NCBI GenBank assembly: GCA_021234155.1
Contig: JAJEKV010000052.1
Location: 4,259,606 to 4,323,605 of the forward strand
Length of the DNA stretch: 64,000 nt
From: Isoetes taiwanensis
Lineage: Eukaryota > Streptophyta > Lycopodiopsida > Isoetales > Isoetaceae
Reading direction: 5' to 3'
Positions 11,352 to 44,735 of the stretch are shown in pieces; position 1 is the stretch's first letter, and the number at the start of each line of letters is the position of its first letter. The notes under the pieces were generated by a model. It did no database searches. It saw only the letters and a list, made by a program, of their open reading frames with translations, and was not told the DNA's origin. Made by a program: the position numbers and the translations under genes.

Positions 11352-11850
11352 TATATTTTATGTTTTAATTCCACTTTTGCAATGGTTTAGCCTCATATTT
11401 GTATAGTTGTTGTGTTTTCTAATTTTCCCCTGTAATTTTAATGGTGTAGATCAACTCTTTAGTTCGAGATCAAGGGCTCATAATGGAAGCCCCCTTTCGC
11501 TACTGTAATTACATGCAGACCTCGAGGTCTTGGTTTCTAGGGTTTGCTCTTTGTTTCACACAGAAAAAGGAGCCGGGTGGGTTTGGCTTCGAGCTTTCAA
11601 TCCCCTTTCTGACATGGCATATCCGCACTAGGCCTTTCTTCCTAGTTTTGCCTGCCTCATACTTTCCCCAGCTTTTCCGACCCTTTCCCTTACCAGAATC
11701 GTTGTTACCGAATCGTACAATTTGATCAAGGTTTCTGTCCAGCAGGAGCGCTTTTGGAGGTTCGGCACCAGAGGCTCATTTGGCCCGATTATTGGGATTC
11801 GCTTTCAGGTTTTGATTAGGGTTTTTTATTTTCAGAAATTTGTTAGGTTT

Positions 11851-12402
11851 ATGTGCAATGGCGATTATTACAAGTGCAATGCTCCAATCAACTCCTCAGA
11901 TTCATCATCCTCTTCTGCAAAATCTATCTTCAAAACGAGCCATGGAACTATGCCCATTGGGGACCCTGCTACTGCAAAATCCTTGGGAATTAAAATTTGT
12001 TCACTCGCAAGCGAAGGCTGCAGTTCATTCATTTCTAGGGAATATCCAATGCATTTTCAGGGTGCCATAGGGATGTCCATGGCAAACTCAAAAAATTATA
12101 GAGTACTTTGTAGTGTTGCAGAGGTATTAGGTAGTGCCCAATCAAGTGAGGAAACAACTAAGGCTGTGGTAGGTTCACGAGTTAAGGTAAAGGGCCCCTT
12201 GAAAGTCTACCATGTACCCAAGGTTCCTGAGTTTGACATAGCAGGCTTGGAAGGTGAAGTGAAGGTTATTTTGGGTGTTTGGAAAGGAAAACCTGTGTCT
12301 GCAAATTTGCCATATAAGGTGCAGTTTTTAACGGACATAGGAGGGCGGCAGGTTAAATGTTTTGCTCATTTGAAAGATGGAGAATTTGATGTTGTCAGTT
12401 GA
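11851..12402 (+). CDS. FTRV: Ferredoxin-thioredoxin reductase, variable (alpha) chain, chloroplast precursor
   Basis: The last ~75 residues form the FTR alpha/variable-chain barrel: SRVKVKGPLKVYHVPKVPE, then EGEVKVILGVWKGKPVSANLPYK (residues about 134-156, motif core VWKGK..SANLP) and KCFAHLKDGEF near the end. The small variable subunit binds the 4Fe-4S catalytic chain, together passing electrons from ferredoxin to thioredoxins in the stroma (established knowledge). Residues 1-105 are Ser-rich and act presumably as transit peptide. The ATG at 11851 has a weak context (T at -3, T at +4); the frame is open back to 11722. A stronger ATG at 11858 (G at -3, G at +4) opens another frame, see findings. 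A T-rich acceptor-like TTTTTATTTTCAG at 11822-11834 suggests a 5'-UTR intron. The gene is otherwise intact, 183 residues. Confidence 0.88.
   Translation: MCNGDYYKCNAPINSSDSSSSSAKSIFKTSHGTMPIGDPATAKSLGIKICSLASEGCSSFISREYPMHFQGAIGMSMANSKNYRVLCSVAEVLGSAQSSEETTKAVVGSRVKVKGPLKVYHVPKVPEFDIAGLEGEVKVILGVWKGKPVSANLPYKVQFLTDIGGRQVKCFAHLKDGEFDVVS
11858..12070 (+). other. Overlapping alternative reading frame at the 5' end of the FTR gene
   Basis: A frame starting with the strong-context ATG at 11858 (MAIITSAMLQSTPQ) runs to 12070. Its N-terminus looks like a chloroplast transit peptide: no acidic residues at first, rich in S, T, Q and hydroxylated residues. It is out of frame with the FTR domain. It could be the true start with a missed base or intron between, an overlapping uORF, or chance. 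Confidence 0.35.
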
Positions 12403-12800
12403 ATCTGTATGCCCACCAAGAAGAGAGAGGGAGTGTAGCTAGCTGCAAAACACTAGCTGATATTACCATTCCTTACTGCAAAAAGAAAAATAAAATGGCA
12501 GTTAGATTGGAGGTTGACGATACATAATGTTCATTCAGGCCAAAGAGTGGCATAATGAATGGTTTATGCAAGTTAATTGTATGATAGAACGGCACTTTTG
12601 GTGACAATCAATAGAGGATGCAGCATGGTACTATTTCTTACTTGGTGGTAGTTCTTTCTTATGATTCATGCAGGTAATATTCATGCATGAACATGATAGC
12701 CAGGATGTTCCATGCCCCCCTTAAACCCGAAGAATCTGCAGTTGGAGTTGGTACAGTTAGATCCTCTGAAGTCATTATGTTGGCTGGTTTGGCATTTAAA

Positions 12801-12955
12801 ATAGAATAGAATAGAATAGTTTTTTTAACGTCCACGAAGACCAATAGGTCATGGGACCCATACAATGGGCTAGTACAATCATTACTACTAGGATTAAAAA
12901 ACCCCTGCCTCGAAAGGTTTTCAAGGGAAAAACCTTTGTAGTAATGATGATACTA
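12801..12955 (-). mobile_element. 3'-end fragment of the LINE family also present at 17.8, 53.4 and 61.2 kb
   Basis: Read on the minus strand, this holds the conserved LINE 3' UTR: the hairpin region AAAACCTTTCGAGGCAGGGG, TTTTTTAATCC, GGGTCCCATGACC and GTGGACG, ending in a (CTATT)n tail at 12801-12819. It is nearly identical to 61167-61310 (minus). It is severely 5' truncated with no coding sequence. The family assignment rests on shared sequence with copies that carry RT domains. Confidence 0.8.
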
Positions 12956-13475
12956 CAAAGCGAAATGGCAGAATAAGCGAAAAGAACAAGGCTTGCCATA
13001 TGACAAACCAAATATTGTTACTGGAGCCAATGTCAAGGTATTACTTATGCAATAAGTCCATTAAGTGTCATACTTTTTTGTGATCCATGCATATATCTTT
13101 TTTGCTGCTTGTTTAGGTCTGTCGCGCTATTTCGAAGTCGAATTGAGAGAAGTTAAGCTTACAAAGGATCGCTATGTCATGGACCCTTACAAGGCAGTTC
13201 AACTTGTGAATGAGAACACCATTTGTGTGTGATGCAACTTGGAGAAAAAACGACAGAGCATTTAACTGTTTGTTCGTTACTAATAAATTCTATTATTACA
13301 CGCTACCTCATATATTAATATTGGTATATTGGTATGATATTATATGTCTAATTCTACGCAATGTTTTCGTTTTTATAATTCGAGCACCTCTAGTTTGATA
13401 GATTTGTGAGGCTATGATACATCATCCATCGTTAGAGTATTAGGTAATGTCTATATCTACACCTCCACACCATCC

Positions 13476-13995
13476 TTAAGGCCCCGAAGGGGCCAAATTT
13501 TTTTTTTAGTTAACATAAACCATTAACACACAACTACCATTATTAACACAAACCATTGCATTTAACATATTTAAATTAAAATCCCCCTTAAACCCCCTTT
13601 GGTTTGGGTGCATATTCATACGGGGGGTTACGTAGGCAGCGAGAGCCCCAAAAAATTTACAATACATGTACAAAATTAACACCATTGAGTACATTCTCTC
13701 AAACCTTATAATATTTTGCAAACTTTAATATACAGTATACAAAAACTTGTACATGCATACCCCACAAATGAGGATCGCTATGTACGGTCCAGATCTTGGA
13801 ATAAAGGGCAAATATGCCCATCCGACAACTCTCGTTGCCCGGAGTAACCCCCCGCGTGAATATGCACCCAAATCAAAGGGGGTTTAAGGGGGATTTTAAT
13901 TTAAATATGTTAAATGCAATGGTTTGTGTTAATAATGTTAATGGTAGTTGTGTGTTAATGGTTTATGTTAATGGTTTATGTTAATGGTAGTTGTG
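13476..13995. repeat. MITE family A, copy 1: long terminal inverted repeats, ~0.5 kb
   Basis: The left arm (about 13500-13650) and right arm (about 13830-13975) are inverted copies. Shared core: TTTAAATTAAAATCCCCC, TTAAACCCCCTTTG and GGGTGCATATTCA, followed by CGGGGGGT. A palindrome GGCCCCGAAGGGGCC lies just outside the left arm (13480-13495). The right arm contains a short tandem duplication of TTAATGGTTTATG. Related copies are at 31669-31837 (half) and 42332-42809 (complete). There is no coding capacity, so it is a non-autonomous element. Confidence 0.78.
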
Positions 13996-16900
13996 TGAAT
14001 AAGCACCAAATATTATGGGTTTAAAAACCGCCGTTTTTAAGCACGTTTAAGCGGCATCCGAACGATGATTTCTGCTATCCAGTAGCAATTTTATACCTAC
14101 ATTGATGTCGCATTCTAATGTGGTTTCTCTAAAATTTGGATCTATTAAAAAAAAAAAAACACAGTATTTGTGTAATTTAAGATCAGGCTGAGAGAGTTCT
14201 AAGAGAAATGAACACCTTCAAACCAATCTACCCTTTCACTTCTTCTGGCATTGGCTTGTTCTGTGTATTTAGGCTCTTAAAGCTTCTTAGGTAGTTTCCA
14301 AAGAAACTTTAAGCATTTGGAAAAGGAATGCACAAAAAAGTGGATTCCACTTTCTGTTCATAATTTCATTTTCTATGTTATATAGAATACACAATTCTGG
14401 CCATCATTTTGAAAACCCTATATCAAAATATACAGCATACAAAAATACTAGGAGACCCTTATCCAAATGGAACTAGCAAAAGGCACACCAGAAGGTTTTG
14501 GCAAGGTATTGTTTTGTATTAAAAAGCTAGAATTGGTTAGATTTATTTTCTTCAAGTTGTCAAAGTTTTAGAAAGGTCTTGTTCAGCTTCTTAATGGGTA
14601 TAATTGTAATAGGTTGTATATATGTACCTGTTCGTTGCAAGCTAGCGCACAATAAATACTTTAGACTTATTGTTATATCCTATTGTTTAAATTTGGTTTT
14701 TCCGGGGTTCCGAAAACTTTTTAGAATTTTCTCTTAACTTGATTTTCTAAGGTTTCGAGGGTTCTGCCTGCCGAAAAACAATTCCGATTCGCCAAAAATC
14801 GGGAAAAATTCCTTAGCCTTGATTTTGGTTTCGATTTTGCCCCTTTAGCGTTGATTTTGGTTTCGATTCCTTTTTTATTTTTTATTTCGACCTTCAAATC
14901 CGGCATGCGTATGTGAACGGCATGGAGGACATCGTGGACGGCATGGAGGACATCGTGGATTTGCTCTGTTACTGGGACTCTTAGCGCTAAGATGCCGCAA
15001 TAGGTAAGCCCTACAGGTTGGGTTGTTCTTGACATTTCTTGACTGCCCCTTCGTTGGATCGGCTCTTTGGGACCGCAACGACTTTATAGACAGATGAAGG
15101 GATGCTTATTCATGTAGCCGATGTGCATAAGGATCTTGCAAAAATGACTAGGGTCTCCCTGAGATTATGGCAGGCATTCCTGGTACTGTGATGTTTTGTT
15201 TGGATGCCCAAAACAGTTGGATACAAATAGATTCGGCTGAAGTAGACAACAATTGTTCTGACATGGTGCTTATATCTGGAGTGCTTCTAATCAGGTTTGA
15301 TCTTGGCTTGATTTCTAATTCTTAAATATATTGCTCTGGATAAGGCCGATTTACTACTGTGTAGCATTTTGGATGGTGTTAGATTTATGATTCACTTATG
15401 CAGCATGCATGCTTAATCCATGATGTTGTTCGCAAGATATTATCCTTTTTAAATGGAGATTAAGTTGTAAACAAGTCCCGATAGGTGTTGTGTCCTTTGG
15501 TGTCTGCTCTATTTCAGCTCGCTCGCTTCTTAGGTGGAGGCGGTAAACAACACTAGAGATGGACAAGGTCTTCTTAAATTGGTTCTCGATTGTTTTTGGT
15601 CTTTCATTCCATTCACAATAGCATTGGTAGATAAGTTCTTGCTTTATACTATATCAGCAAATGGGCCAACCAAAACACATTGTTTTGAAGGTCCTTTTGG
15701 CTAAAGAATTCTCTCTTACATAGACAATTAATGCTTTAGAACAAGTTAATCTTGATGTATTTACTTCTATACCCATCTAGAGAATAGAAGTGCCCAAGTC
15801 TGAGATGTGTGCTGCCATAAACAAGACTGTAATGCCAATATCAGTTGAGCTAGGAAGGCCAATTTGAATGTAATTTAAATCATCTTGACAACCTAATTAT
15901 GCACAGGAAAACCACTTGGCAGAGACAGATTACCTAAGCATTAGCTTTGTACTAGAGTCTTTGCTAGAGGCAGAATGCTGAAGTAGCATTAACATGGACT
16001 GCATGTATTCTGGGAGCCCCGTTAATGGCAGAGGTACGTGGCTTGCTAAAAATCTGAGATACTTGAGATCTTGGATAATGATTATTATGCATTTAATGAG
16101 GCCAGACATAGAAGCATGTCTTTGCACATGCAGAACAAGAACTGGGAAAGCTTATACCATATCAATCTTGGCTCTCTTAAAATTTTCTTCCTTTCTATTG
16201 TTCTTTTGGCAAACTATTGCTGCTGGGGAAAACAGATATATCTCTTGCTGCCTTTTCAAGGTGCTTTAATATCCAGCTATGGTTAGGTTTGCACTCTGAC
16301 AATGACTAGCTATTGCAACCATGTTTTGATATGTGCATCCTTAGGTCTGGGGCATCAATGTTATTCAAACTCTTAGGAATCAAGATACATGTGCAGTCCA
16401 ATTTCACCATGGCATACTCTTATATGCATTCGTCTTTCAATTGCTAGGTATGGAGGCAGAACCGTATGCGCAACTTATGTTTAAGTCTAGCTGATTCCTT
16501 AAGAAGTTGGTGTCTGTTTCTACGAAGTTTAATCTCAGCTTGTTGTTTCTGCAATCTCAACTTGCTCTTTCGCTTTGACCTGTTACAGGAAATATGCATG
16601 TATATGAAGTTCTTCTATAGTCTAATAGGGCTACATGAGTTTTACATGTGATTGCATAAGGTGTTTATTAACAAACTCCTGTCTCTATTCTAAATAAATG
16701 ATAATGGCCTTCATTTCTTGGTAATAAATAATCTCATACCAACATATAGGGCATATTAATTTTAGAATAGATGGCTTTTTCTAAATTTTGTTTGCATGCA
16801 GGTGTACTGGACTCACTTTATTGCTCACTTTATTGATTAAGGAGCATTTCATTGTAATGTTTCTTTGGGTAATTGCACACAGTCCATGTCTCTAGATAAG

Positions 16901-28350: not shown

Positions 28351-28890
28351 GTCAGCCAGACAAATCAGCGGTGCAAGTCAACAGAGAAGACAACATGCAA
28401 GTCAACAGGCAAGTCAAGAGAAAGACAAAGAGACAAGTCACAGGGCAAGGCAACAGAGAAGACAATATGCAAGTCAACAGACAAGTCAGCAGCCAACTCA
28501 ACAGCCAAGTCAGCATGCAATACAGCAAACAAGTCAGCAAGCAAGTCAGCAGCCAACTCAACAGCCAACTCAACAGCCAAGTCAGCAGACAACTCAGCAG
28601 CCAACTCTACAGCCAAGTCAACAGGCAAGTCAATAGACAAGTCGGCATCCAACTCAACAAATTAAGTCGGCGACCCATTTCGGCAGACCAACTCGCCCAC
28701 CAAGTCGGCCAGAGGCAAGTCGGAGGCAAGTCACAGAGCAAGTCGTCAGGGCAAGCCGGCCAGCCAAGTCAGCAGGCAAGCCTGCAAACAAGTCAGCAGG
28801 CAAGTCAGCAGACAAGTCAGCAGCCAACTCAACAGCCAAGTCAGCAGACAAGGCATCAAACAAGTCATCAGTCAAGTCAGCAGGCTTAAG
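28300..28890 (+). repeat. 12-bp coding-like minisatellite (CAAGTCAGCAGC type)
   Basis: About 45 units of a 12-bp repeat, mostly CAAGTCAACAGG, CAAGTCAGCAGC or CAACTCAACAGC. A 12-bp period keeps all frames open, giving Ser/Thr-Gln-Gln repeats in one frame and Asp-Leu-rich repeats on the other strand. It starts where the transposase frame ends (after NYEQSQRAS) but runs out of frame with it after the TAA at 28348-28350. Confidence 0.88.
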
Positions 28891-28929
28891 TGCAAAGCCA
28901 ACAATTGAACAATTGAGCAAGTGAGCCAT

Positions 28930-29612: not shown

Positions 29613-31668
29613 CTGAATTCTCATATTTGAATAGCATTTTATCTATGGTTTTACAATGGTTTTATTTGAATGTATCTATGGTTTTACAATGGTTTTGCCT
29701 TGTATGTTTTTGTTCCTTAAAAATTTAATTAATTTAATTTTATGAAGGCCATGCAAGCAACGAGGCATTCAACTTTAGGGTTCGACTTTAGGGTTCGTGG
29801 AAAGGGGATTTAGAGGACCATTTCTGGCAGTTTTCTCCTCGCTATCGCTTCTACAGTTCTATGGTTTCAGGACCCATCAGATTTGCTTCGGCTGCCAGAT
29901 GCACAAAATCCTTGACGGCAGCTTTATGGGAGGATTCGGCCTAACAATGGCTACAGGACCATTTTGGAGCAGAAACAAGTCCGGCGAAGATGCAGAGGTC
30001 GGCTCCAAGCTCCAGATTTTTCTATGGCAGGCACATTCTGGCAGGTTCAGCTTTTGCTTTCTTGTTCTTGTTTTTTCCTTGCGAAGGAGCTGACTTATTG
30101 AAGATCTGAAGCTCTTTGGCGAAGGGAAAATACAGAAGGAGATATACGTCCCCTTGGCTTCCGGGCATCTCTTCTACACAATTCGCAGGTAAGTGATTGC
30201 TCTCTCTACCCCTCCAAGGCAAATGATAATCCGAGATTCCATAAAGCTTCCAGCCATCGTTACAACTTAATGTAGGTGGAGCACTGTAAGAAGAAAGTGA
30301 TGCAAAACAGAGTATTCTACAAGAAGTCAAGCCCCAAGAACTCTGCCTTCGAGCTTTGTAGCATGCCATCAACGGCAGATAAAGACCTTGCTGATCACTG
30401 CATTGCTCTGTTCCCCCTTTATTGACTCGGCTATCTCACAGGTACACTGATTCTCATTTACAAGCTCGATTATGATTAGTTGTGCGGGTGCATATGTGTG
30501 GTCATTTGCTGCTAGCTCTGCCGATTTTGCAACGTTTAGTCAATTGCAATCAGTTGGAATGGAAGTTTTCGTACTAGAAAACTTGAATAAATGTTTTAAC
30601 TCAACACGAAAGCTGGATGTTGCTAATAGGGAGCCATTTTTTCCGGCACAAGTCATCCCGTCTTCTTTAAAGCACACTGGTAGCATCTTCTTCTTTGAAT
30701 TTTTGAGCTATTGCAGTCTCTTTTGTTTCGTATGCTAATTTGACACAGATGTTACCAATTTGGTGTAAAAGTACATGCTCTATTTAAGACCAGTTGAATC
30801 TTTCACTTTTAATGTGCTGGTTTTCTATCTTATATGATGATGCATTCATGGACTAGGAATCCATCGTTCAACATTTTGTGCAACTTTAAATCGATGGCGT
30901 TGTGGCATGGGTTCTTGGAACTCTCTTGGTAAATCATTTCGAGCAACAAAGCAGTTACATCTCTTGCAGTGATCTTTGTGCCCATACTGTGTTTTCTTGG
31001 TGTTGTGTTCTTTAGTACTTTGTATTTTTTATTGCTTACGGTGAGAAGATATCCATACAAGTCTATGCAACTTTCTGTTGGAAGGGTTTTTATTGACGAA
31101 TTTTTCCCTAACATGGGAGGCATTTATATCTATGTTACAAGACGGAAGAATATCAGAAAAACTGCTGGAGCTGCTATATGATCCTCGACCTCATTCATTT
31201 TCCAGGTTTTTGACTTCAACTATTTGAAAACTATGGCATCTGGAGACTGATTATTATGATACCATATCATGGTTATTTTATTACCATTTGATATATATGT
31301 TGTTTCACATTCTATTTGACGTATTATTATAGCATTTACCCACTAAACAACTGCAACAGGCTAACTGCTCTCTGCAGACTGTTTGATAGGCAAATCAACC
31401 AAGATTTGTATCGTATCTTAAACCACTATCCACTTTAAGTGCTCCAAAACTATTATAATACCTTTGCTATTTTCAATAACTCAATAAATTTCTAAATAAA
31501 ATGCTTTTATAGCATATATAATTATATTACATTATACGCTTTAATATTATAGTTACTCATGTTTCATTTTACTATATTCCCTTTTTTTTTCTTAATGCTG
31601 CATATTACATAACACATATTGCTACATGTTTTAAATGTCTTTTATATTCTCACGTCTATTTTTTTTTA
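29613..31668 (+). other. Region with exon-like segments but no recognised gene
   Basis: A consensus splice donor TTCGCAG|GTAAGTGA lies at 30182-30196 after a 30-codon open stretch (KLFGEGKIQKEIYVPLASG). An open frame at 30290-30420 (VFYKKSSPKNSAFELCSMP) and another at 30472-30738 have ordinary protein composition but no known domain. The segment could be the 5' part of an intron-containing host gene. Sequence to 31668 is AT-rich. Confidence 0.3.
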
Positions 31669-31837
31669 TGGCCCGAAGGGCCAAAAATTTTTTTTAGTAT
31701 AATAACCAACACATAACTACCATTGACATTAATAAATATAACCATTGGATCCAACACATTTAAATTAAAATCCCCCTTAAACCCCCTTTGATTTGGGTGC
31801 ATATTCACACGGGGGGTGACGTAGGGCAGCGAGAGCC
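31669..31837. repeat. MITE family A, half copy truncated at the left end of the RT element
   Basis: It holds the hairpin GGCCCGAAGGGCC (31671-31683) and the complete left arm (AGTATAATAACC ... TTTGGGTGCATATTCACAC), then stops in the element centre at GAGAGCCCTCATA, where the 2.9-kb repeat begins. In the complete copy at 42332-42809 the same point continues with ATTGTATTTTTGC. The matching second half is absent here. Confidence 0.82.
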
Positions 31838-32615
31838 CTCATACAGGTGAGTTTTTAGACCATATGATCAGTCTGTTTCTATACATGAGAGAAGCAGTTA
31901 AACTGATTAAAGATAAGTTGCCCCAGTAAACAATAACATTAGAGTTTGATTGTAACTTTTTATAGGGCCCCATCAATTAGACTAAACTTTGAAGAACAAG
32001 TTTGGGAAGCCCTTGTAGTGTACGTATTTATACACATTTAATCTGTCCTCAGCTTGGCCTGTTACTAACATTCATACTAAAAATGTTTGAATACAAACTT
32101 TGGCCTTTCTTGTGAATTATAAAATCCCCCAGTTAGACGTATTGTGCTTAAAGGCACTGGAAGAAATATAGAAAACTAAGGGAGGTCTACCTTTAAACTG
32201 TGTGCTAGCTATCACCATTAACTGATCTTTTGTTGCTTTGATATCTCTTACATTTTTGGCCAAATCTGACAATGGTCAAATACTAGGGAATATATGATAG
32301 TGGAGCAAATACACCTTGAACATTTGACGATTGCCTTTTTTGAGGCATTTAATGAATAAGAGTTTACCTATGAAATTCTATGACCATTCGTAATTATTAT
32401 TTTTAGTATTACTCTCTCTTAGATTTAGGAGACAGTAAATCTCTGACCATAGTACACCAGACTTAATTGCGGTCTGGTAAAACTGTAAAGATAAAGTTTA
32501 GAGCGGGAGGATCTTTTGCATGAGATCTACTTAAACATCTCAATAGGAATTCTGCTCTAAAAAACCAACAAACTTTGTACACTGGTGTCTGTTTTTTCGG
32601 ATCATCCTACCTTGT

Positions 32616-32723
32616 ATGATTATGGCACCAAAGCGTGGACCTGGACGCCCTCCCGGATCGAAAAATATAAGAGGAAGAGGCAATCCTTTTGGGCCAAGAA
32701 GAACGTCTCCACCGCCAAACTAG
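32616..32723 (+). pseudogene. AT-hook protein ORF, truncated copy in repeat A
   Basis: It begins exactly as the copy at 40216 (MIMAPKRGPGRPPGSKN, the AT-hook) but stops at TAG 32721-32723. Repeat B has CACCTGGCCAAA where this copy has CACCGCCAAA, a 2-bp difference that shifts the frame. Residual similarity downstream shows that it once matched the full 97-residue ORF. Confidence 0.7.
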
Positions 32724-32969
32724 GAATGCACAGTCGCCAATATTTTCAAAAAGATGTTTGATGCGTAATGCTACAACAAGAAATGCCGGCTTTGAGAATA
32801 CTGAGAACCTGTCTACAACAATCCGGCCGTGATTGACTTGGAAACAAATCGAGGAGGCTGACCGAACACGAGAGGCGATCTAAATGAGGTCTTCTTTCAT
32901 TTGCTTTAACTTGAGATTCAAATGGACCTTCACATAAACGCTTGGTAGACTTTTTTTAGGACATAAAAA

Positions 32970-33215
32970 ATGGGTTCTAAGGGAATTCATACAGCTTTAG
33001 AAAGTCTATTTAACCCAACAATCTCTGGCTCTCTGGCTGATAATGATTATCTAAGTATCCCAAGGAAAGGTTCGGATGCTAACGAGGAGACTAGAGCATT
33101 CAGAAATATGCCCTATACCACCTTCTACTTACTGTTATTGTTGCTGGAATTGCATGTAAACTCCCATACTAATCTACCATTTCGGATTTATCATTTTTGG
33201 AGAATAGAAACGTAA
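32970..33215 (+). CDS. Unrecognised 81-residue ORF, repeat A
   Basis: It starts MGSKGIHTALESLFNPT, shows SGSLADNDYLSIPRKGSD, then a Leu-rich hydrophobic run (TFYLLLLLLEL) that could be a membrane segment. It is nearly identical to 40569-40823, with differences at residues about 38, 49 and at the C-terminus. Both copies are open, which suggests coding, but recent duplication alone would also keep them open. No family recognised. Confidence 0.4.
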   Translation: MGSKGIHTALESLFNPTISGSLADNDYLSIPRKGSDANEETRAFRNMPYTTFYLLLLLLELHVNSHTNLPFRIYHFWRIET

Positions 33216-34935
33216 CAAAGATCTAGGGTTTTTCACAGGTGCAACACATCATTTCACTGGTTTCTATGGCTTATTTACAGGTGGTCATATCAGAGACAAT
33301 TAATAATATTTAACTAGTATCAGCCATGATCAGCGGCATAAAGGTTTATCTAGTTTAGTATGCTGACAGGTTGCTTCTGAAACCTTTATCCATTAAACTT
33401 GTCTATTATTCCATTTGATGCTGGCAATCTTTTTATTATTAGGAAGATGTCGATTTTAAAACTTACCGTTTTAGTTACTGATTATTGGTTTATTTCTCAA
33501 ACTTTTAAGGAAACGGATAAAAACATGGTTTGTCTTCGCTTACCTGCTAGCTGCTTCATGCTTACCCTTTTTTAGGCTAACGTATGATTGATTTGGCTGC
33601 AGGTAACACGTCAAACCTACCTTAATTTTGTTTGGGCTTTGCAAAATGGTGGAGTAGTTCGACCGAGAGGAGGAGACCCGACATTCAAATTTTTGGAAAC
33701 TCTTCACGCCTTTTTCATGTTCTTTCTTTTGTTGATACTCTATACTATATTTTCAACTTAGTTCAAGTGTAGTACTCTGAATTTTTGTAGCAAATACCTT
33801 AAAGTTACGCTGCTCCAGATTTTTCTACACGGCCATAAGATAGTAATCTTGAAGGATACATTTATGATAGTAATATTTACGTATTACGGCTTTGTAATAC
33901 CAAGACAGTTCAAAAAATAAAAAAGAAAAAAAATTTTTGAAAACATGATCTCGGATCTATTTATGATAATGGTTTCCTTTTCTAGCAGTTGTGCTTAGGA
34001 ATAGGTCCTGATTTCATACACATCCGCATTGGATAACCTCTCATTAAATAGAAGCGGATTTAAGTACATTATATTTTTGCTTCACGTTTCTTACAATAAT
34101 CCCATATTTACGGTATAAGTTCGAATTAACCTATGGTTTAATAAAATATGCACTGGTCTTGATCTGATCTTGCTTTTACCATAGTTCAGTCATGATTAAG
34201 CCTGCCACACAATCCTGAGTCAAGAGGATACTTACATTTCATAAGAATGAAGGCTAGAAATTATCTACCGCTGATAAACAGAACCTGAAGACTAGTAGTT
34301 TGGGGTTTGATTGATTCAGCTTTCGACTTTGTAAGGCTCCAAAAGAGTTTTAACTAACAGCTAATTTTTTTCCACTTTGGAAAACTTAATAAACAGGATA
34401 TTGCAACTGCACAAAGGAAACTAGTTCTTTGAGGCTTGATTTCTCAGCTTCCTTGTTCTTGGGACCTTTATTGGTTGTATGTATATCTCTAAGTCTCTGC
34501 AAATTTTGTATGGTCATTGCTTGGTTCAGCTCCCTACTTTACACATCATTCGATGTACCTTAACTATGCTATACATAGGTTTTGTTTGCCTCTGTATCAA
34601 CATATGTGTGTGCCAGATGAAGGGTGTGGGCCTGGTTTAAACCAGGACAGACAAATTCTCAATTTCTAACTAGGTTTAGTTCTTGAAGTATAGTATTTGC
34701 TAGATTAGACCCTAGCAAGTATTTTGTAAAATTTTTATGAAGCTTCTGTTTTTCCGTTCGAGGACGGATAACCCATGCTCCTGGCTTTACTATTACTGTT
34801 ATTGCTCTTGATTATGAACATGACACTCATAATTAAAATACCTAGATGTGGTGAATAATACTAATTTGTGGGATCATGTTAGTCCTGATCAACATGATTG
34901 GATATGGGGCCAAATACTTGACCCTCGTCCAGTTA

Positions 34936-35061
34936 TGTTTGTTTAGCTACGTGTTCCCTACTTTAATAACAGGTTGTCTAGAACCTAGCATGCCTGGATG
35001 TTTGTTTAGCTACGTGTTCCCTACTTTAATAACAGGTTGTCTAGAACCTAACATGCCTGGA
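34936..35061 (+). repeat. 63-bp tandem duplication
   Basis: TGTTTGTTTAGCTACGTGTT...ATGCCTGGA occurs at 34936-34998 and 34999-35061 with one base difference. The 63-bp length would keep a reading frame. It lies just before the first large ORF of the RT element. Confidence 0.88.
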
Positions 35062-35204
35062 CAAATAATATCATGATAAATATTTATTTATGTATGTTTA
35101 CTTGACTTTCCTTCATGGCAAACTTCATAAAGATTTTTGATCTTTTGAGATAAACGGTAGAGTTGCAATCCCTTTTGACTGACTGTATCCTTTATCATAC
35201 TGCA

Positions 35205-36056
35205 GACTTATGCATACTCTCAGGAGCAGGGTCATAATGTGATGGACAATCCCTGGATTCCGAAATCGGGAAGTTGGGTTTTGAAATACTTTGAAATGCC
35301 AAGTCCCAAATAGAGCAAAGGTCTGGCACAATTATATGTTGTCTCAATGACGAGCTCATGTTCAAGAAAATTATTGAACTAGAACCTAAAATCACAGACA
35401 TGACTTTCAAAGCAGTGGCTTTTCTTGGATTCAATGATTGGCTTGAGGTGCTTACACTCAAGATGAAAAATCATCCAGTAAATTACACTAAAATCATAGA
35501 AGATGTGTATGAAAAAATGACACTCAAAATTTGTGTCAGGTCTGACATGGACATTAATTTTGAAAGAATATTTCCTAAGACTGAGGAATGGATGAAAACA
35601 TGTTACAAAGTGAAGGAGGAGGAAGCTGAAGAGATAAAGAGGCCGAAAACAACCCCTCCCAGAGCACCTTCTGTTAAAAAAGGCCCGACTTTTGGCAACA
35701 GCATATTTAACAGCAGGGCCATGGGTTTTGATGAGCCTGTTGCTCCTGGTCTACCTAGGAGTCCACCTATGGAGCAACGTCCTACCAGTGTCACAGAAGA
35801 CATTGAACAAAAAGAGGGAAGGCCTATTAGATTGGATCTAGGTAATACTGTTTATTTTCCAATGCTGTCACACAGCGCTGTTGAATCACTGGCTCAGGAA
35901 TATGATCAAGTCCTGTGGCAAAGCGGCAATTTGGGCACACTTGCTCCTATGTCAGTTACATCTTGGAAATTCCTCTCTGATATCGATGACAATAAACTTG
36001 AGAACTTCCATAAGATCATTGATAGAGCTGAATACTGTTTAGAAAAACAAGGTTGA
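35205..36056 (+). pseudogene. RT-element ORF 1a: unrecognised protein
   Basis: An acceptor-like ATCATACTGCAG (35193-35204) precedes an open stretch (YSQEQGHNVMDNPWIPKSG), a frame change near 35310, then a 232-codon frame 35358-36056. That frame has an N-terminal helical region (FKKIIELEPKITDMTF, GFNDWLEVLTLKMK), a basic Pro-rich linker (IKRPKTTPPRAPSVKKG, about residues 92-108) and a C-terminal region with EYDQVLWQSGNLG. No known domain. The position 5' of the RT is that of an accessory ORF1 protein. It is interrupted and probably inactive as read. Confidence 0.5.
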
Positions 36057-36852
36057 GAGATGTTCCGTTTGATATGCAAACGCTCGAGAAGGAATGCCCC
36101 GTCCGCTTTGGGATGTACATCAATCAAGAATCATATGGCAGCTATGGCGATCTACAAAAAGAATACAACTTAAGAAAGATTTGGAGGAGTTTCGCCTGCA
36201 CTTTAAATGTGCTTGTGATACACGTGAGGAATAACACCGCAGAGAAAACATTACTTGGTTCGACCAAGGAATTTGGTACATCCTTAATAATTTGGGAACA
36301 GTCTACCCCAATATGGACTGTAAAAAGGCTTTTATGACAGTGGTGAACTTACTTTCGAATGACCTACAAAAGTTTGCTAAGGCATACATCTCCTACATCA
36401 GATTTAGGTCTCTGGCTTATTATATGGCTATTGACATCAGCAAAGACCCTAATTGTGACATCAGAAAAAAGTATGGGGATACGTACTTGGTGATGGTAAC
36501 GGAAATGATGCTAAATCCTGATGGTTCTGCTACTAAGGAACCAACTGAGGCGCCATATCCTCCCCCAAGAAACAGTAGGAGGAGGGTTTCTAATACTGCT
36601 TCTTCTAGCAGCATGTGTATAAGCTTTCATCCTCCCAGGATGACTCGGATGGGGGATAACAGTCAGGGAAAGGCCAACTCGGCATCAAACACATCAGCTA
36701 GTACTTCAAGCACACCTGCTAGCACTTCAACTGATGGACATAAGAACATGGAACCTTCTCTTACGGAGGAGCTTTCGGTTACAAAAGCAAGATCCAATCC
36801 GGACAAAAGCTTGCACGAGGACATCAATGCATTTGATATCTCGGGTGTTTAA
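36057..36852 (+). pseudogene. RT-element ORF 1b: unrecognised protein with Ser/Thr-rich tail
   Basis: It continues after the stop at 36054-36056 in shifted frames: LEKECPVRFGMYINQESYG, then from about 36175 LEEFRLHFKCACDTREE, one stop (about 36230), then ITWFDQGIWYILNNLG and AKAYISYIRFRSLAYYMAID. The last 60 residues are Ser/Thr/Asn-rich low complexity (NTSASTSSTPASTSTDG), stop 36850-36852. It probably forms one protein with ORF 1a when frameshifts are allowed for. No family recognised. Confidence 0.45.
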
Positions 36853-37087
36853 AGGTTAGAGGTTCACTCCTTTTTACACTTCATGTTTCTATTTTTAACT
36901 TACTTTATGTATTCTGACATTAAAGTGTTTACATGCTAATAATACTCCTGGTCTAATTCTATTACTTATGAACATGACCTATCCTACCATGCCTTTAGTC
37001 TCGGCTGACCTTAGGACTTGAGAAAAGGTCCAACCTTTTTGCAAGAGAAGCCCATCTATTCTTTATTTTTTAGGTTTAAAATTCTTC

Positions 37088-39224
37088 TTGTTCTCTAAAA
37101 TAATAGATCCACAACAGGATCCGGACTCAGAAGAGGAACCCAGAAGAATTCTGGTGTGCGACCATAATAATAGAATATCTATTATGACTAATAAGAAGGA
37201 GAAGAAGCTAGTTCTACACCTCACCTATGTGTCCAAGCTTATGGATGCCATCAGATTTAGAGAAATCCTTGAGCATGCGGTACCTTTGTTCTGTGGAGAA
37301 AAAGGAGTAGAAGCCTTAGACAAAACAATGTTGGGTTGGAGATACCTACCTAAGCTGGTTCAGATGGTGTATAAACCATTCAGAATTTTTGTGGACAGAA
37401 GAACGCCCAAATGCCCCCGCAAAAGGCATAACTTCAAGAAATTCATTGACCCTAAGTACAAACATGTACTTACTACTAATCTGGGCATAATTGTGAATGG
37501 AAATCTCAGAAATCTCTTCAAGAAAGGCCTTAATCATGTGCCATACAGGAAACCAGACATGAATGATTGCATGAAAAACTGTATGGAAGGACCCAAAGCA
37601 ACTTTTTCTCCCTACATAGATTCAACATTGAGCCTATTGATGCACGCAGATTTCAGTTCATCCAGACAGCGGCCAGAGAACAGGCTTACGGTATGATGAA
37701 GTCTTTTCTTAATAGCACGGATGGCAAAATTAGACACTACATTCTAGAGGAAGACAAAAAGGCATTGGATGACCTAGAATGGATTAAGCAGAATCTATAT
37801 ATCGCAGGAATAGACAAAGCGGAACAATCCCAGCTTCATGTGCCCTTTCTTAGCAAAACAACTAGCCCCTCGAAAGACCGAATCACCCGCATTTTTTATC
37901 CAATAAAACTAACACCGAGGTTACGATTATGTTGCTACTAAAATTCAAGGCTTCTGGAAATTTGAAGAGGAAAGTCTTAAAGATCTTCCACTGCCTTACT
38001 TGTTATGCATCTATAAAGCGCATAAAAATAGCATGCGCTGGATAACAAATGCGCACAACTCCATTTTCTCAGAAATAGCTGAAATTGTGTCACATGGCCT
38101 GCTTGCCATTATTAAATTGTGGCCTGAAATATCAAGAGACGTATGTGCTGGAATTGATTTGTTCTGCAAAAAAGAGTTTAGCCCCAACTGGATGGTAAAC
38201 TCTATTTACGATGTTGTGCTTAATCTTCCTAGCAAAATCCATAGTGTGTTCGTGGCTGATATTAGTAAGTGCTATGAATCCATCCCCCTGGAAGGAGAGA
38301 ATGGCCTTTGTGAAATAATGGAAAAGATTATAAATTTAACTTTCCAGTTCCAAAAGAAAATTAACAAGAACTTAAAATTATGGTTCAAAAGGATAAGCAG
38401 CTTTAATGGAGGCTTTGCCACAAAATGGGACAGTAAAAGCAAACAGCTGACTGGTTGGAGGGAAATGACCTGCCAAAATTTCGTGGATATGAATATTTGG
38501 TTACTAAAGAACTATTTGGTTATGTAATGACGAAAAACACGAGGCAAACTCAAGCGGTATTCCCATGGGTTTTGCATGCTCTCCCAGTTGGTGCAATATG
38601 TATTTGGCGTGGTATGAAGTCAATTTCATACTCAGACTTGCCAAGGAAGGCCGTTATGTGGATATTGTTAGATTCAAGCACTCTTTCAGATATATGGACG
38701 ACCTTCTGCTTATTAATTGCGGCAATCCTAGAGAGTTCTTTGACAAAGACAATGATATTTGGCTCTACAATCTCAACTTTATTGAGATAAAGGAAGAGAC
38801 TAAAGACTTCATAGGATATAATGAATGCAACAAAATAGGAATTTCAGCTAGTTTTCTGAATATGCACCTCAAAATTCTGAACGTCTCATCGGGAAGTTAT
38901 TGTACATTCAAGTATGACAAAAGGGACGCTCTGCCTTTGAAAGCAAAAAAATTCATCATGGCAGATAGCTGCAGACCGTATTTTCAGGCCAGCAAAGTCA
39001 TTTGCTCCCAAGTAATGCCTTGCCTGTACGTCAACAGTAATTGTGTCAGTGCAGCCAGGGACCTAAAAAACATCATCTCCCAGTTTACTGAAAATGGATT
39101 TGATGAGAAAACAATTAGGGGAAACGTTTGTAAGATTCTGAATCAAAACTTTCCTGGATTAACGTACGATTGCAAGGACGTTATCAAACATCTATTTCAC
39201 AGGTACTTTACTTTCATAATGTAA
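37088..39224 (+). pseudogene. Reverse transcriptase, Penelope-like-type motif pattern, frameshifted
   Basis: Successive frames carry one continuous protein: an N-terminal region (37088-37620), EPIDARRFQFIQ (about 37625-37660), LPYLLCIYKAHKN (about 37988-38030), motif A ADISKCYESIP (38255-38287), motif B GIPMGFACSPSWCNMYL (38556-38606), motif C RYMDDLLLIN (YMDD at 38691-38702), then ASFLNMHLKI and YDKRDALPLK. Frame changes fall near 37620, 37915, 38455 and 38555. The K-x-H-K block, SPSW in motif B, and the MHL...YDKRD block after YMDD match RTs of the Penelope-like group as I know them. The catalytic aspartates (motif A D, YMDD) are intact. The C-terminus ends at 39224 without a recognisable endonuclease. 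Confidence 0.72.
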
Positions 39225-39308
39225 ATACATTATATTTTGTTCCATTAGTCTTAACAATTTGACCTGATGGCTTTTATATTCATATTATGTATTAAATATT
39301 GATTACTA

Positions 39309-39351
39309 GCTGAGTAGGGTCCTAGCAGCATTGCTGGGCACCTTACTCAGC
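39309..39351. repeat. 43-bp near-perfect palindrome after the RT
   Basis: The outer stem GCTGAGTA...TACTCAGC (39309-39316 / 39344-39351) is perfect; the inner CCTAGCAGCATTGCTGGG pairs with one mismatch. The inner part resembles the GC hairpins at 11076 and 24384, including the following CACC-TTACT. It may be an RNA terminus structure of the retroelement or a remnant of a Helitron-like end. Confidence 0.7.
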
Positions 39352-40215
39352 CTAGCATTTGCTCATAAAATCTGGACCCTCCTCGCTAGCGGTAGGAGGA
39401 AGGGTTTATTTTTGAAGGGTCGGCTTCACGCACTCCCTCATACAGGTGAGTTTTTAGACCATATGATCAGTCTGTTTCTATACATGAGAGAAGCAGTTAA
39501 ACTGATTAAAGATAAGTTGCCCCAGTAAACAATAACATTAGAGTTTGATTGTAACTTTTTATAGGGCCCCATCAATTAGACTAAACTTTGAAGAACAAGT
39601 TTGGGAAGCCCTTGTAGTGTACGTATTTATACACATTTAATCTGTCCTCAGCTTGGCCTGTTACTAACATTCATACTAAAAATGTTTGAATACAAACTTT
39701 GGCCTTTCTTGTGAATTATAAAATCCCCCAGTTAGACGTATTGTGCTTAAAGGCACTGGAAGAAATATAGAAAACTAAGGGAGGTCTACCTTTAAACTGT
39801 GTGCTAGCTATCACCATTAACTGATCTTTTGTTGCTTTGATATCTCTTACATTTTTGGCCAAATCTGACAATGGTCAAATACTAGGGAATATATGATAGT
39901 GGAGCAAATACACCTTGAACATTTGACGATTGCCTTTTTTGAGGCATTTAATGAATAAGAGTTTACCTATGAAATTCTATGACCATTCGTAATTATTATT
40001 TTTAGTATTACTCTCTCTTAGATTTAGGAGACAGTAAATCTCTGACCATAGTACACCAGACTTAATTGGGTCCGGTAAAAACTCAGAAAGATAAAGTTTA
40101 GAGCGGGAGGATCTTTTGCATGAGATCTACTTAAACATCTCAATAGGAATTCTGCTCTAAAAAACCAACAAACTTTGTACACTGGTGTCTGTTTTTTCGG
40201 ATCATCCTACCTTGT

Positions 40216-40509
40216 ATGATTATGGCACCAAAGCGTGGACCTGGACGCCCTCCCGGATCGAAAAATATAAGAGGAAGAGGCAATCCTTTTGGGCCAAGAA
40301 GAACGTCTCCACCTGGCCAAACTAGGAATGCACAGGCTGCCAATATTTTCAAAAGATGTTTGATGCGTAATGCTACAACAAGAAATGCTGGCTTTGAGAA
40401 TACAGAACCGGTCTACAACAATCCGGCTGTGATTGACTTGGAAACAAATCAGGAGGCTGCGACTGAACCTGGAGGCGATCTAAATGAGGTCTTCTTTCAT
40501 TTGCTTTAA
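40216..40509 (+). CDS. AT-hook protein of the RT element, 97 residues
   Basis: MIMAPKRGPGRPPGSKN contains a canonical AT-hook (RGPGRPPGS; residues about 6-15), followed by RGRGNPFGPRR, a second basic patch, then a neutral/acidic tail (VIDLETNQEAATEPGGDLNEV). AT-hooks bind the minor groove of AT-rich DNA (established knowledge); a role in element chromatin targeting is inference. An alternative start is Met3 at 40222. The copy in repeat A is truncated. Confidence 0.6.
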   Translation: MIMAPKRGPGRPPGSKNIRGRGNPFGPRRTSPPGQTRNAQAANIFKRCLMRNATTRNAGFENTEPVYNNPAVIDLETNQEAATEPGGDLNEVFFHLL

Positions 40510-40568
40510 CTTGAGATTCAAATGGGCCTTCTGTGTAAACGCTTGGTAGACTTTTAGCCAGACATAAA

Positions 40569-40823
40569 ATGGGTTCTAAGGGAATTCATACAGCTTTAGA
40601 AAGTCTATTTAACCCAACAATCTCTGGCTCTCTGGCTGATAATGATTATCTAAGTATCCCAAGGAAAGGTTCGGATGCTAAGGAGGAGACTAGAGCATTC
40701 AGAAATATGCCCTTTACCACCTTCTACTTACTGTTATTGTTGCTGGAATTGCATGTAAACTCCCATACTAATCTACCATTTCGGATTTATCATTTTTGGA
40801 GAATAGAACAGAACAGCATCTAG
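40569..40823 (+). CDS. Unrecognised 84-residue ORF, repeat B
   Basis: Counterpart of 32970-33215; starts MGSKGIHTALESLFNPT and ends WRIEQNSI. It lies 60 bp after the AT-hook ORF. The Leu-rich segment (about residues 51-62) could span a membrane. No known domain. Confidence 0.4.
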   Translation: MGSKGIHTALESLFNPTISGSLADNDYLSIPRKGSDAKEETRAFRNMPFTTFYLLLLLLELHVNSHTNLPFRIYHFWRIEQNSI

Positions 40824-42331
40824 GGGTTTTTCACAGGTGCAACACATCATTTCCGCTGGTTTCTATGGCTTATTTACAGGTGGTCATATCAGAGACAATT
40901 AATAATATTTAACTAGTATCAGCCATGATCAGCATAAAGGTTTATCTAGTTTAGTATGCTGACAGGTTGCTTCTGAAACCTTTATCCATTAAACTTGTCT
41001 ATTATTCCATTTGATGCTGGCAATCTTTTTATTATTAGGAAGATGTCGATTTTAAAACTTACCGTTTTAGTTACTGATTATTGGTTTATTTCTCAAACTT
41101 TTAAGGAAACGGATAAAAACATGGTTTGTCTTCGCTTACCTGCTAGCTGCTTCATGCTTACCCCTTTTTTAGGCTAACGTATGATTGATTTGGCTGCAGG
41201 TAACACGTCAAACCTACCTTAATTTTGTTTGGGCTTTGCAAAATGGTGGAGTAGTTCGGGACTGGAGGAGCTGACCTGACATTCAGCCCTTGGAAACTCT
41301 TCACGCCTTTTTCATGTTCTTTCTTTTGTTGATACTCTATACTATATTTTCAACTTAGTTCAAGTGTAGTACTCTGAATTTTTGTAGCAAATACCTTAAA
41401 GTTACGCTGCTCCAGATTTTTCTACACGGCCATAAGATAGTAATCTTGAAGGATACATTTATGATAGTAATATTTACGTATTACGGCTTTGTAATACCAA
41501 GACAGTTCAAAAAATAAAAAAGAAAAAACATTTTTGAAAACATGATCTCGGATCTATTTATGATAATGGTTTCCTTTTCTAGCAGTTGTGCTTAGGAATA
41601 GGTCCTGATTTCATACACATCCGCATTGGATAACCTCTGTTAAATAGAAGCAGGATTTAAGTACATTATATTTTGCTTCACGTTTCTTACAATAATCCCA
41701 TATTTCTGGTATAAGTTCTGGAATTAACCTATGGTTTAATAAAATATGCACTGGTCTTGATCTGATCTTGCTTTTACCATAGTTCAGTCATGATTAAGCC
41801 TGCCACACAATCCTGAGTCAAGAGGATACTTACATTTCATAAGAATGAAGGCTAGAAATTATCTACACGATAAAATGTAACACAAGACTAGTAGTTTGGG
41901 GTTTGATTGATTCAGCTTTCGACTTTGTAAGGCTCCAAAAGAGTTTTAACTAACAGCTAATTTTTTTCCACTTTGGAAAACTTAATAAACAGGATATTGC
42001 AACTGCACAAAGGAAACTAGTTCTTTGAGGCTTGATTTCTCAGCTTCCTTGTTCTTGGGACCTTTATTGGTTGTATGTATATCTCTAAGTCTCTGCAAAT
42101 TTTGTATGGTCATTGCTTGGTTCAGCTCCCTACTTTACACATCATTCGATGTACCTTAACTATGCTATAATGTAGGTTTTGTTTGCCTCTCAGATCACAT
42201 ATGTGTGTGCGGATGAAGGGTGTGGGCCTGGTTTAAACCAGGACAGACAAATTCTCAATTTCTAACTAGGTTTAGTTCTTGAAGTATAGTATTTGCTAGA
42301 TTAGACCCTAGCAAGTATTTTGTAAAATTTT

Positions 42332-42809
42332 TTTTAGTATAATAACCAACACATAACTACCATTGACATTAATAAATATAACCATTGGATCCAACACATT
42401 TAAATTAAAATCCCCCTTAAACCCCCTTTGATTTGGGTGCATATTCACATCGGGGTGACGTGAGGGCGTGAGAGCCCTCATAATTGTATTTTTGCACGCA
42501 TCTGAAATCAAATCAACACCATATAGTATTCCGGTTGAAATCTTATAGTATTTTGCGAATCCTATTATACAGTATAGCAAATCTTGTACTTGCATACCCC
42601 ACAAATGAGGAACTTTACGTACGGTGTAGATTAAGGAATAAGGGGCGAATATGCCAATCCGACAGCTCTCGATGCCCGGAGTCACCCCCCGTGTGAATAT
42701 GCACCCAAATCAAAGGGGGTTTAAGGGGGATTTTAATTTAAATGTGTTGGATCCAATGGTTATATTTATTAATGTCAATGGTAGTTATGTGTTGGTTATT
42801 ATACTAAAA
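42332..42809. repeat. MITE family A, complete copy (478 bp, ~130-bp inverted arms)
   Basis: The left arm 42332-42460 (TTTTAGTATAATAACC ...) is matched by the right arm 42677-42809 (... GGTTATTATACTAAAA). The central part contains GAGAGCCCTCATAATTG and a TGCATACCCCACAAATGAGG stretch also present in the 13.5-kb copy. It begins at the right end of repeat B, so it either inserted there or formed the recombination site. Confidence 0.85.
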
Positions 42810-44053
42810 CTTAATGATACAACTTTATAAGTCATTGTGCATGCCGTAACTCTATGTGTCATCATTGAGCATAAATAAATACTATTGTAGATATAAAAAG
42901 ATACATTGAACTAATTCAGATTTTGCTCAATAAATCACTTAGGGTTGGTATTCGACTACGACATTAAGACATAGACTTTAATAAAACATCCAAATGATTT
43001 TGCCATATCATAAATTCGTCATTTTTGTGTATAACAGTCGTGTGGAAGTTAAAATAAAATACCAATGTGGTGTTGCTCAAGGCCTTTAAGGACAACAAAT
43101 ATTGGCTGGCTCTAAATAGAATGATAAAAATGCCCCTTGCTAAGATGTCGCCGTGTGGATCTCAATTTGTTTGTTCATTTCCTTTCTCTTTATGGACGAT
43201 AAAAACTCTGTTCTTTTTCTTTCTTGTTCTATGTATCCTACGTGGCTTTATTATGTTTCTAGGGTGGAATCATTCCCCTAAATTCTTGAGCTGGAAAAGA
43301 GAACAAATAATTTTTCAAAGCTGTAGCACAAATTTAATGTCTTATACTTAATGTCTTATATACATTCTGGTAGCTGCAACTTCTTTTTCAAGCATGTCTA
43401 TTTTACATTCCAAATTCAAAACATGCCACATTCTATTCTAAGTATATGTCAATGTAAATCCATAGAATGTGATAAGTTTGCGTGGTAACGGCTTGAGATT
43501 GTTGCCTATATGCTCTTATAGATTGGCATATATGAAATAATAAAAGATGCGTGTTTATTTCTGTATTGTTCAATTCTGGATTTACAGGTGTTGCATCAAG
43601 CACTTGCAGTACTTTCCAGAAGTTTGAAATTGGTGCACTAAATAATCATTAGAAGCTTGCATAATCAAATATATAACTTTTTAAGACGGCACAAACGCAA
43701 CATGAAGTCCATCCATGATAGAAGATTTTCTATTTGCTGTAAGCAAAGCAGGCAGTGCCTTAGTTAAATTGTGTTAGTTTGGCTTGTAATTCTGTGCCTT
43801 AGTTGAATTGTGTTAGTTTGGTTTGTAATTCTATGATGGAAATCTGGGAACGAAGGGTTCACATTAGTGGTTTTATGATAGAAACATGGGACTGAAGCTC
43901 AAGGTGTCAAAGTTAGTGATCGGACCAGTCTGTTTTGAAGAGGGCACTTCCTCAGACATTATGGTCATGCTGAGAGACTAATCTTAGTTTTTACTTTAGC
44001 GCTTACTCTGCTAAAGAGAAGTAGCAGGGCGATGATTCTCTAAATCTTTTATG
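42810..44053. other. Non-coding stretch
   Basis: AT-rich DNA without a recognised gene; a short duplication of TGTGTTAGTTTGGCTTGTAATTCT occurs near 43770-43835. Confidence 0.4.
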
Positions 44054-44735
44054 GCAGAGGCCCATTATATATATTGCTTGTAATCTGCAACATAACCTCA
44101 ATGAATAAACTATTAAAGCCACCAAAATAATTTGTTTCTATAAGAAGAATTGTTGATATTCAAAAAAAAGTACAAAGTCATTGCATCACTGCAACTGGAA
44201 TCTCACAAAACTGTAGAACTGACAATAGGCCTCAGAGAAAAGAGTGGCTTTGATTATTTCCAGACCTTGCAAAATTGAAATGCAAATCTAATGCAACAAT
44301 AAGAATGACCATGGCAAACAAAAAATAATAAACTTACCAACTTTAGTGGCAATTCAAGATATGTATTCAAAATTTATTCTCTTGTATTTGATAATGGGAA
44401 GAGGCCCATTATATGGACTGCATGTGTTCTGCAACATAACCTCATAACCTCAATGAATAAGCAACTGTTAAAGCCATTTGTTTCTATAAGAAGAATCTTT
44501 GGTATTCAACAAAAAGTACCTAGTCGTTGCCTTATTGTAACGATCTCTAAAAATTGTAGAACTGACAACAGGCCCCAGAGAAAACAATGGCTTGAACTAC
44601 TACTCCAGACCTTGCAAAAATGAAATGCAAATATATCGCAACAGTAAGAATCACCATGGCAAACAGAAACTAATAAACTTACCAACTTCAGTGGCAAGAT
44701 GTATTCAGAATTTATTCTCTTGCATTTGATATGTG
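44054..44735 (-). repeat. Diverged ~344-bp tandem duplication, possibly an exon duplication of a minus-strand gene
   Basis: 44054-44397 and 44398-44735 share long matched blocks (AGGCCCATTATAT, GCAACATAACCTCA, TTTGTTTCTATAAGAAGAAT, AATAAACTTACCAACTT). On the minus strand both contain a donor-like AAGTTG|GTAAGTTTATT. Divergence is about 15-20%, so the duplication is older than the 2.9-kb repeats. Confidence 0.6.

Follow-up and report, generated by a model that had tools for sequence, protein, structure and literature searches.

What leads a retroelement family to land again and again at one spot of another repeat? The question is raised by a 64,000-nt stretch of Isoetes taiwanensis DNA (the window: GCA_021234155.1, contig JAJEKV010000052.1, positions 4,259,606-4,323,605 of the forward strand), in which a 7.6-kb retroelement unit is present about 1.4 times head to tail. 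Judged by its relatives across the genome, this locus is one copy of a multicopy retroelement family. The family is related to Penelope-like elements, is real and is probably recently active. It repeatedly lands at one foldback spot, apparently because the start site in its RNA matches that spot. Here one repeat family is the landing site for another, and for its deletion derivative, in a lycophyte.

The target site and its junctions

The genome assembly (1,658,258,908 bases in 1110 contigs) was searched with the last 633 element bases as probe, and 40 of 263 candidates were scored. Five of the scored matches are the window, C1007 and C1089 copies themselves and one falls short of the 3′ end. 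The 34 others were fetched; seven are internal, continuing into ATGAAGC or ATCAAGC, and 27 are external. Every one of the 27 passes from a T-tract into the foldback repeat (BLAST to the window copy, E 1e-29 or better). The external ends of the window, C1007, C1089 and C907 copies likewise match this repeat, and the flank of C1028 has a foldback terminus with its GGGCCCGAAGGGCCC end on the left. In all, 32/32 examined external 3′ ends abut the oligo-T tract of the foldback repeat, one of them (C1028) by a weaker match, and this abutment appears to be a new finding. The features of the window copy, including its reverse transcriptase (RT), open reading frames (ORFs) and conserved blocks (R1 to R3), are as follows.

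31684..31843, + strand: left target-duplication copy (foldback repeat end, T-tract inward); 156 bases match 42324-42482, lengths 160 and 159
31836..34736, + strand: upstream repeat P, part of the upstream unit, AT-hook frame broken; 96.9% to 39435-42332
34616..34880, + strand: internal R3, putative 3′-end signal with start motif GTAAAATTTTT then ATGAAGC and hairpins on both sides; conserved across subfamilies, folding beats 196/200 shuffles
35242..36852, + strand: ORF1 (~530 aa), here broken over three frames, open in C1007, C1028, C907 and C1031; from frame analysis and copy comparison
37088..39224, + strand: reverse transcriptase (~700 aa), here broken, open in C1089, C907 and C1031; from frames, RT relatives and copy comparison
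39308..39450, + strand: R1, conserved structured block 3′ of the RT stop; conservation, 0/200 shuffles fold as well
39435..42332, + strand: downstream repeat P′, the unit's 3′ part; from the repeat alignment
40222..40509, + strand: AT-hook-like ORF (95 aa from ATG); motif by eye, conserved
40569..40823, + strand: second small ORF, not conserved; window and C1089 only, among 13 loci
41100..41220, + strand: R2, conserved non-coding block; conservation between copies
42198..42332, + strand: R3, 3′-terminal 135 bp common to the deletion derivative and other copies; from the 3′-end genome search
42324..42482, + strand: right target-duplication copy; match to 31684-31843
42332..42809 (478 bp), no strand assigned: target, a foldback repeat resembling a miniature inverted-repeat transposable element, arms ~145 bp; from self-comparison and genome search

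Could the foldback repeat be the element's own 3′ hairpin or terminal repeat, making the whole a unit of the terminal inverted repeat or long terminal repeat (LTR) type with no target specificity? The repeat does abut every examined external 3′ end, and one arm stands on the left in most copies read. However, it is far commoner alone: all 40 scored places of a genome search match it (window 100%, others 94-97%; 4373 first-look candidates), and 8 of the 19 foldback places in 315 kb of fetched DNA lie apart from mapped element ends. The foldback copies that flank elements are ~70-93% identical to the window's, beside elements that are 95-97% alike, and the duplications begin at the T-tract and finish at differing points. 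We consider this explanation very unlikely, and the foldback repeat was rejected as a part of the element. Since the flanking foldback copies differ from the window's to this degree, the insertion sites are independent. A solitary foldback copy lies at 13525-13956 of the window.

Long target duplications of 58-369 bp flank five of the eight insertions read: 160/159 bp in the window (156 matching), 58 bp in C1007 (58 matching), 369 bp in C1028 (367 matching), 240 bp in C907 (239 matching) and 90 bp in C1038 (88 matching). The 3′ end is fixed and the 5′ ends vary between copies. Half of the insertions read (window, C1088, C1038 and C984; 4/8) begin on the 3′ side of R1, all inside a stretch of ~35 bases, a cluster that may mark either the 5′ end of the RNA or a point where the enzyme stops. 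The others begin at places corresponding to window 31927 (C1007) and 34920 (C1089), near R3 (C907) and inside P (C1028). Long, variable target duplications and variable 5′ ends opposite fixed 3′ ends seem to be new here.

Start motif and priming within the RNA

Internal copies of the window type carry GTAAAATTTTT and then ATGAAGC, and the target sequence is AAAATTTTTTTT. The C61 and C1018 copies have CTAGTATATATAATGAAGC at the corresponding place. A search for this sister subfamily scored 40 of 158 candidates, and 17 places were fetched, including the three whose match ended at the motif. Fifteen are internal, one of the three motif-ending matches among them, and two are external. Both external ends of the TATATATA subfamily (2/2) run into (TA)n, an outcome predicted before the search result. 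Sister subfamilies differ in start motif and target, so target choice of a Penelope-type element is directly testable.

The best explanation, to which we give a probability of roughly 0.7, is target-primed reverse transcription that starts within a multimeric RNA, where the freed target strand pairs with a matching motif. A multimeric or read-through RNA would be recognized through R3 and the hairpins on either side of the start motif. At the T-tract the A-strand of the target would come free, pair with a U-run that lies within the RNA (GUAAAAUUUUU before AUGAAGC) and prime synthesis in the direction of the RNA 5′ end, across P and in some cases across an entire unit into its neighbour. Synthesis would stop at a range of positions, including several at R1, and the new 5′ end would then be joined, with microhomology, to a second break. 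That break would lie 58-369 bp away, hence the long target duplication. An altered start motif would go with an altered target, as where the TATATATA subfamily ends in (TA)n. The AT-hook protein might hold the A/T tract, although this is a guess. The target might be cut by ORF1 or by a nuclease of the host, or the palindromic repeat might simply break.

An element-encoded cut is the strongest competitor. An endonuclease in ORF1 or the RT protein that has escaped recognition could cut the foldback terminus, with RNA pairing merely fine-tuning the joint. Insertions strictly favour the foldback repeat over other T-tracts, which suggests recognition beyond the T-tract itself, and ORF1, which includes a Cys-rich stretch, shows strong conservation. 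Pfam scans of the ORF1, RT and AT-hook ORFs and 10 further C907 frames found no nuclease family; nor did they find a GIY-YIG domain, of which a very diverged form could escape detection. ORF1 matched no Pfam family and had no PDB relative below E 0.5 (a single match at E 0.55 was taken as chance). These negatives are a weak counterpoint, because a nuclease may be present even where nothing matches. We place this possibility a little short of an even chance.

Several observations count against priming from the matched target strand. The nuclease searches turned up nothing that would make the target cut, which is the main gap. The (TA)n test, which the prediction might have failed, comprises two external ends only. 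C1088 has no target duplication and, compared with the foldback terminus, seems to be missing some ten bases of the target; in C1089 an inverted flank of 359 bp (99.4%) takes the place of a duplication; and the left side of C984 is without a foldback repeat. The C1028 target retains a ~107 bp foldback arm that is 85% identical to another foldback copy and has no match in the window's repeat, and for this reason it is missing among the foldback places. The RT tree, finally, includes no telomerase, long interspersed nuclear element (LINE) or canonical Penelope sequences.

A broader scenario may be proposed, although we think it rather unlikely. A nuclease-free, telomerase-related lineage would have its target written in its RNA, where a few bases at the internal start site would pair with the freed target strand: a change from UAUAUAUA to UUUUU would have shifted it from (TA)n to the T-tract of one palindromic repeat. 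The palindrome itself would be the source of the break, and the AT-hook protein would keep hold of the A/T tract.

The unit, its genes and its conserved blocks

The initial annotation of the window, made from the sequence alone, had described near-identical direct repeats of ~2.9 kb around a 4.7-kb unit, and this holds: 31836-34736 and 39435-42332 are 96.9% alike over 2919 columns, at a spacing of 7599, and the ~4.7 kb between them holds the ORF1 and RT frames. The unit reads ORF1, RT, R1, AT-hook ORF, R2, R3. A partial tandem dimer with pseudo-LTRs had also been proposed, with a single genomic copy or a plain segmental duplication as the alternative; monomers and head-to-tail dimers are both present elsewhere in the genome. 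Like the annotation, our inspection found no LTR hallmarks; no LTR program was run. In all, that interpretation is partly supported. What it missed is that insertion is site-specific, that the target duplications are long, that a deletion derivative exists and that the RNA start motif matches the target.

An RT probe gave 40 scored matches among 53 candidates in the genome, with the window's own copy counted and some matches being fragments of a single copy. Long stretches of 12 further copies were read, two of them as 10-kb pieces only. C1007 is another partial dimer, 94.9% identical and collinear with window 31927-42779, and C1089 is a monomer collinear with the window from 34920 onward. C1028 is a dimer of period 8384, with a coding part ~72% alike to the window and 2033-bp repeats 99.1% alike. 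The monomer C907 has terminal repeats of 154 bp (100% alike) and a 240-bp duplication. C1031 has two head-to-tail units, 92.9% alike, the second cut short.

Tandem structure could also arise by unequal recombination after insertion of a monomer, rather than from a multimeric RNA. The longer R3 tandem series in C1054 would suit such a history. Partial dimers, however, stand at unrelated sites (window, C1007, C1028, C984), and three of them (window, C1007 and C1028) lie whole within their target duplication, which makes recombination an improbable source.

The left repeat has 81 columns of private differences in 22 clusters. In the four repeat copies compared, 54/81 (the left repeat), 23/29, 8/13 and 66/105 private differences fall at CAG/CTG/CCG/CGG sites, against a background of 0.17-0.18; the counts permit one extra base on either side. 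Because the differences cluster at these sites, nanopore consensus error may account for some of the repeat divergence and some of the frame breaks, which would fit basecalling of methylated plant DNA. In the genome paper, the published assembly is given as 1658.30 Mb in 204 scaffolds and 909 contigs, nanopore reads were used, and LTR elements are the most abundant repeat class (PMC8566536).

Three ORFs (the novel ORF1, that of the RT and that of an AT-hook-like protein) are common to the family and, from their substitution patterns, are under purifying selection. The annotation had counted at least four, but the second small ORF was rejected as a family gene. It had also placed an AT-hook ORF in each repeat; only the right repeat keeps this frame open, and the left one carries it broken. 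From stop to stop, the open frames of C907 are 531 aa (ORF1), 708 aa (RT) and 109 aa (AT-hook). Synonymous sites approach saturation in comparisons between subfamilies, where the proportion of differing sites is 0.71-0.85 (synonymous, pS) and, for ORF1 and RT, 0.15-0.27 (nonsynonymous, pN). The ratio of nonsynonymous to synonymous substitution rates (dN/dS) is 0.08-0.09 for ORF1 in the two computable between-subfamily pairs. For the AT-hook ORF it is 0.18-0.39 in 11 of 14 such pairs, with three not computable, and the annotation's coding sequence inside the repeat is thereby borne out. For the closely related C907 and C1028 the ratio is 0.37 in ORF1 and 0.93 in the AT-hook ORF, with few changes behind both values. 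The AT-hook assignment is a motif seen by eye; the Pfam AT_hook score is 11.1 bits in the C1031 copy, against a cut-off of 17.4. Among 5812 candidates ORF1 had no relative at E 0.001 or better, and it did not resemble the N-terminal region of P0024, a protein of Selaginella (best E 0.85). A single-sequence structure model of the window ORF1 piece was uninformative, at a predicted local distance difference test (pLDDT) of 35.

R1 folds better than all of its shuffles (0/200 as good, z -4.5) and R3 better than most (4/200 as good, z -2.5). R3 encloses the 3′ end of the element, and in internal copies conservation continues past that end. An R3 stem changes from CCGT/ACGG in the window type to CTGT/ACAG in C61 and C1018, one double change that preserves the stem. 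Among the predicted pairs of R1, 3/35 are doubly changed and several are broken in some rows, which leaves R1 unsupported as a ribozyme. The annotation had suggested looking for hammerhead ribozymes in the repeats; none was found, with no Rfam match up to E 5 across 31000-43500. Canonical Penelope-like clades carry such a ribozyme in the pseudo-LTR.

In C984 the unit measures 4194 bp and stands in a partial dimer. It retains about the first 100 ORF1 residues, the RT tail with R1, an open 108-aa AT-hook frame, R2 and R3, and C1038 matches its 3′ part. R3 recurs at 4.2-4.4 kb in C1054 and C572. A deletion derivative that keeps the presumed 3′ signal and the AT-hook frame appears to be new here, and the 4.2-kb derivatives may be partners moved by full elements. 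At C1054:748939-775343 (-) the R3 series, at ~4.4 kb, forms a longer tandem array of the derivative.

Two other copies have unusual surroundings. In C1031, 2-kb direct repeats (joined coordinates 654-2652 and 14706-16731, 94% alike, with simple-sequence tracts) flank the tandem unit pair, possibly as a very long target duplication or as an older repeat. In C1018 (joined coordinates 6162-7441 versus 8587-13258), three adjoining left blocks recur rightward, separated by 1.6 and 1.8 kb, as would follow if an RNA copy had lost introns or if later insertions had arrived with overlaps of 6-8 bp.

The reverse transcriptase and related systems

The RT motifs quoted in the annotation are present at 38508-39224, and its Penelope-like assignment holds as Penelope/telomerase-type by profile, by a tree without canonical Penelope or telomerase sequences, and by predicted fold. 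By these measures the RT is related to Penelope/telomerase RTs. The profile match is to Penelope-like RTs; RVT_1 of Pfam is below its cut-off in every RT tested. For the predicted fold of an RT relative, telomerase is the best match, at low Foldseek TM-scores (0.31-0.37 for ranks 1-11). RT profiles had no match in PDB by sequence, and VIA-align lists no Penelope structure, so it excludes nothing. A CxC motif lies N-terminal to the RT core, as CLC in C1089 and CPC in C1007 and C1028; it is not intact in the window copy. The clade is deep, with members from Isoetes, Selaginella and environmental contigs, and adjoins GIY-YIG Penelope-like RTs. Its 23 rows, including the window family, fall outside 18 Naiad-type rows in a weak split (73/93) in which no Chlamys sequence was identified, and the branch separating the window family from the Naiad-type RTs measures 4.07 changes per column. 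The window family adds this deep clade, with its own gene set and a strict intrachromosomal target, to the Penelope/telomerase RT branch.

The 7.6-kb period and the tandem copies might also suggest a pararetrovirus-like or LTR element whose circle integrated as a partial tandem. This is highly improbable given the Penelope/telomerase-like RT relatives and fold, the lack of an RT relative among 12 pattern matches in IMG/VR viral contigs, and the single 3′ end and long target duplications at one kind of site, which misfit integration of a circle. The family has the pseudo-LTRs, partial tandems and variable 5′ truncation of Penelope-like elements; unlike in LTR retrotransposons, its 5′ ends vary between copies.

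With the Naiad/Chlamys elements, Penelope-like elements that have an N-terminal endonuclease, the family shares an RT alignable over 619 columns, the CxC, DKA and YDKR motifs, pseudo-LTRs and the lack of a detected hammerhead. It differs in having no detected GIY-YIG domain, a separate ORF1 and AT-hook ORF, a foldback or (TA)n target, and duplications of up to 369 bp. Naiad/Chlamys elements reportedly have a microsatellite bias, with Chlamys in spike mosses at ribosomal DNA (Craig et al. 2021, Mol Biol Evol). The Naiad/Chlamys clade is not known to carry a hammerhead ribozyme.

Penelope/Poseidon elements show partial tandems, pseudo-LTRs, 5′ truncation, 5′ microhomology, inverted structures and AT-rich targets like those here; unlike the window family they have a single ORF with a C-terminal GIY-YIG nuclease (PMC11167929, PMC3846280). 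In PAc (Penelope of Anolis) reverse transcription is described as starting within the RNA, as we propose here, at a site that shares no homology with the cut DNA, unlike the motif and target match of the window family (PMC11167929). Target duplications of bdelloid Penelope are given as 8-10 bp (PMC3846280). The endonuclease-deficient Penelope-like elements of Selaginella and conifers are similar in their plant hosts and in having no nuclease found; those of Selaginella, compared by description only, are portrayed as telomere-associated, whereas the window family is intracontig at a foldback repeat (PMC9033089, PMC12477314). No telomeric location of the Athena type was seen for the window copy, which lies at 4.29 Mb of a 10.3-Mb contig, or for the 32/32 external ends at the foldback repeat. 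The R2 retrotransposon and its internal-deletion derivatives are reportedly alike in site-specific insertion and in a 3′ signal common to internally deleted partners (PMC3414825). Nothing in the literature searched was recognized as a description of the window element; subscription journals were mostly outside its coverage, and an earlier description is possible.

A second RT family lies beside the C1089 copy (L012:7457-9514, -), with a 686-aa open frame 38.5% identical to the window RT and followed by a similar hairpin pair of other letters, seen by eye only. Genome-wide, 48/54 scored RT matches to P0032 are without an internal stop (2355 first-look candidates); from these matches, the P0032-type RT lineage of Isoetes taiwanensis is large and recently active. 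The RT relatives P0003, P0005, P0006, P0007 and P0008 are on contigs of 6.5-7.1 kb (longest each), near one unit length. Elsewhere in the window, a minisatellite with a 12-bp unit occupies 28358-28921, and a sequence at 44130-44697 is present in two copies ~345 bp apart, 83-90% alike.

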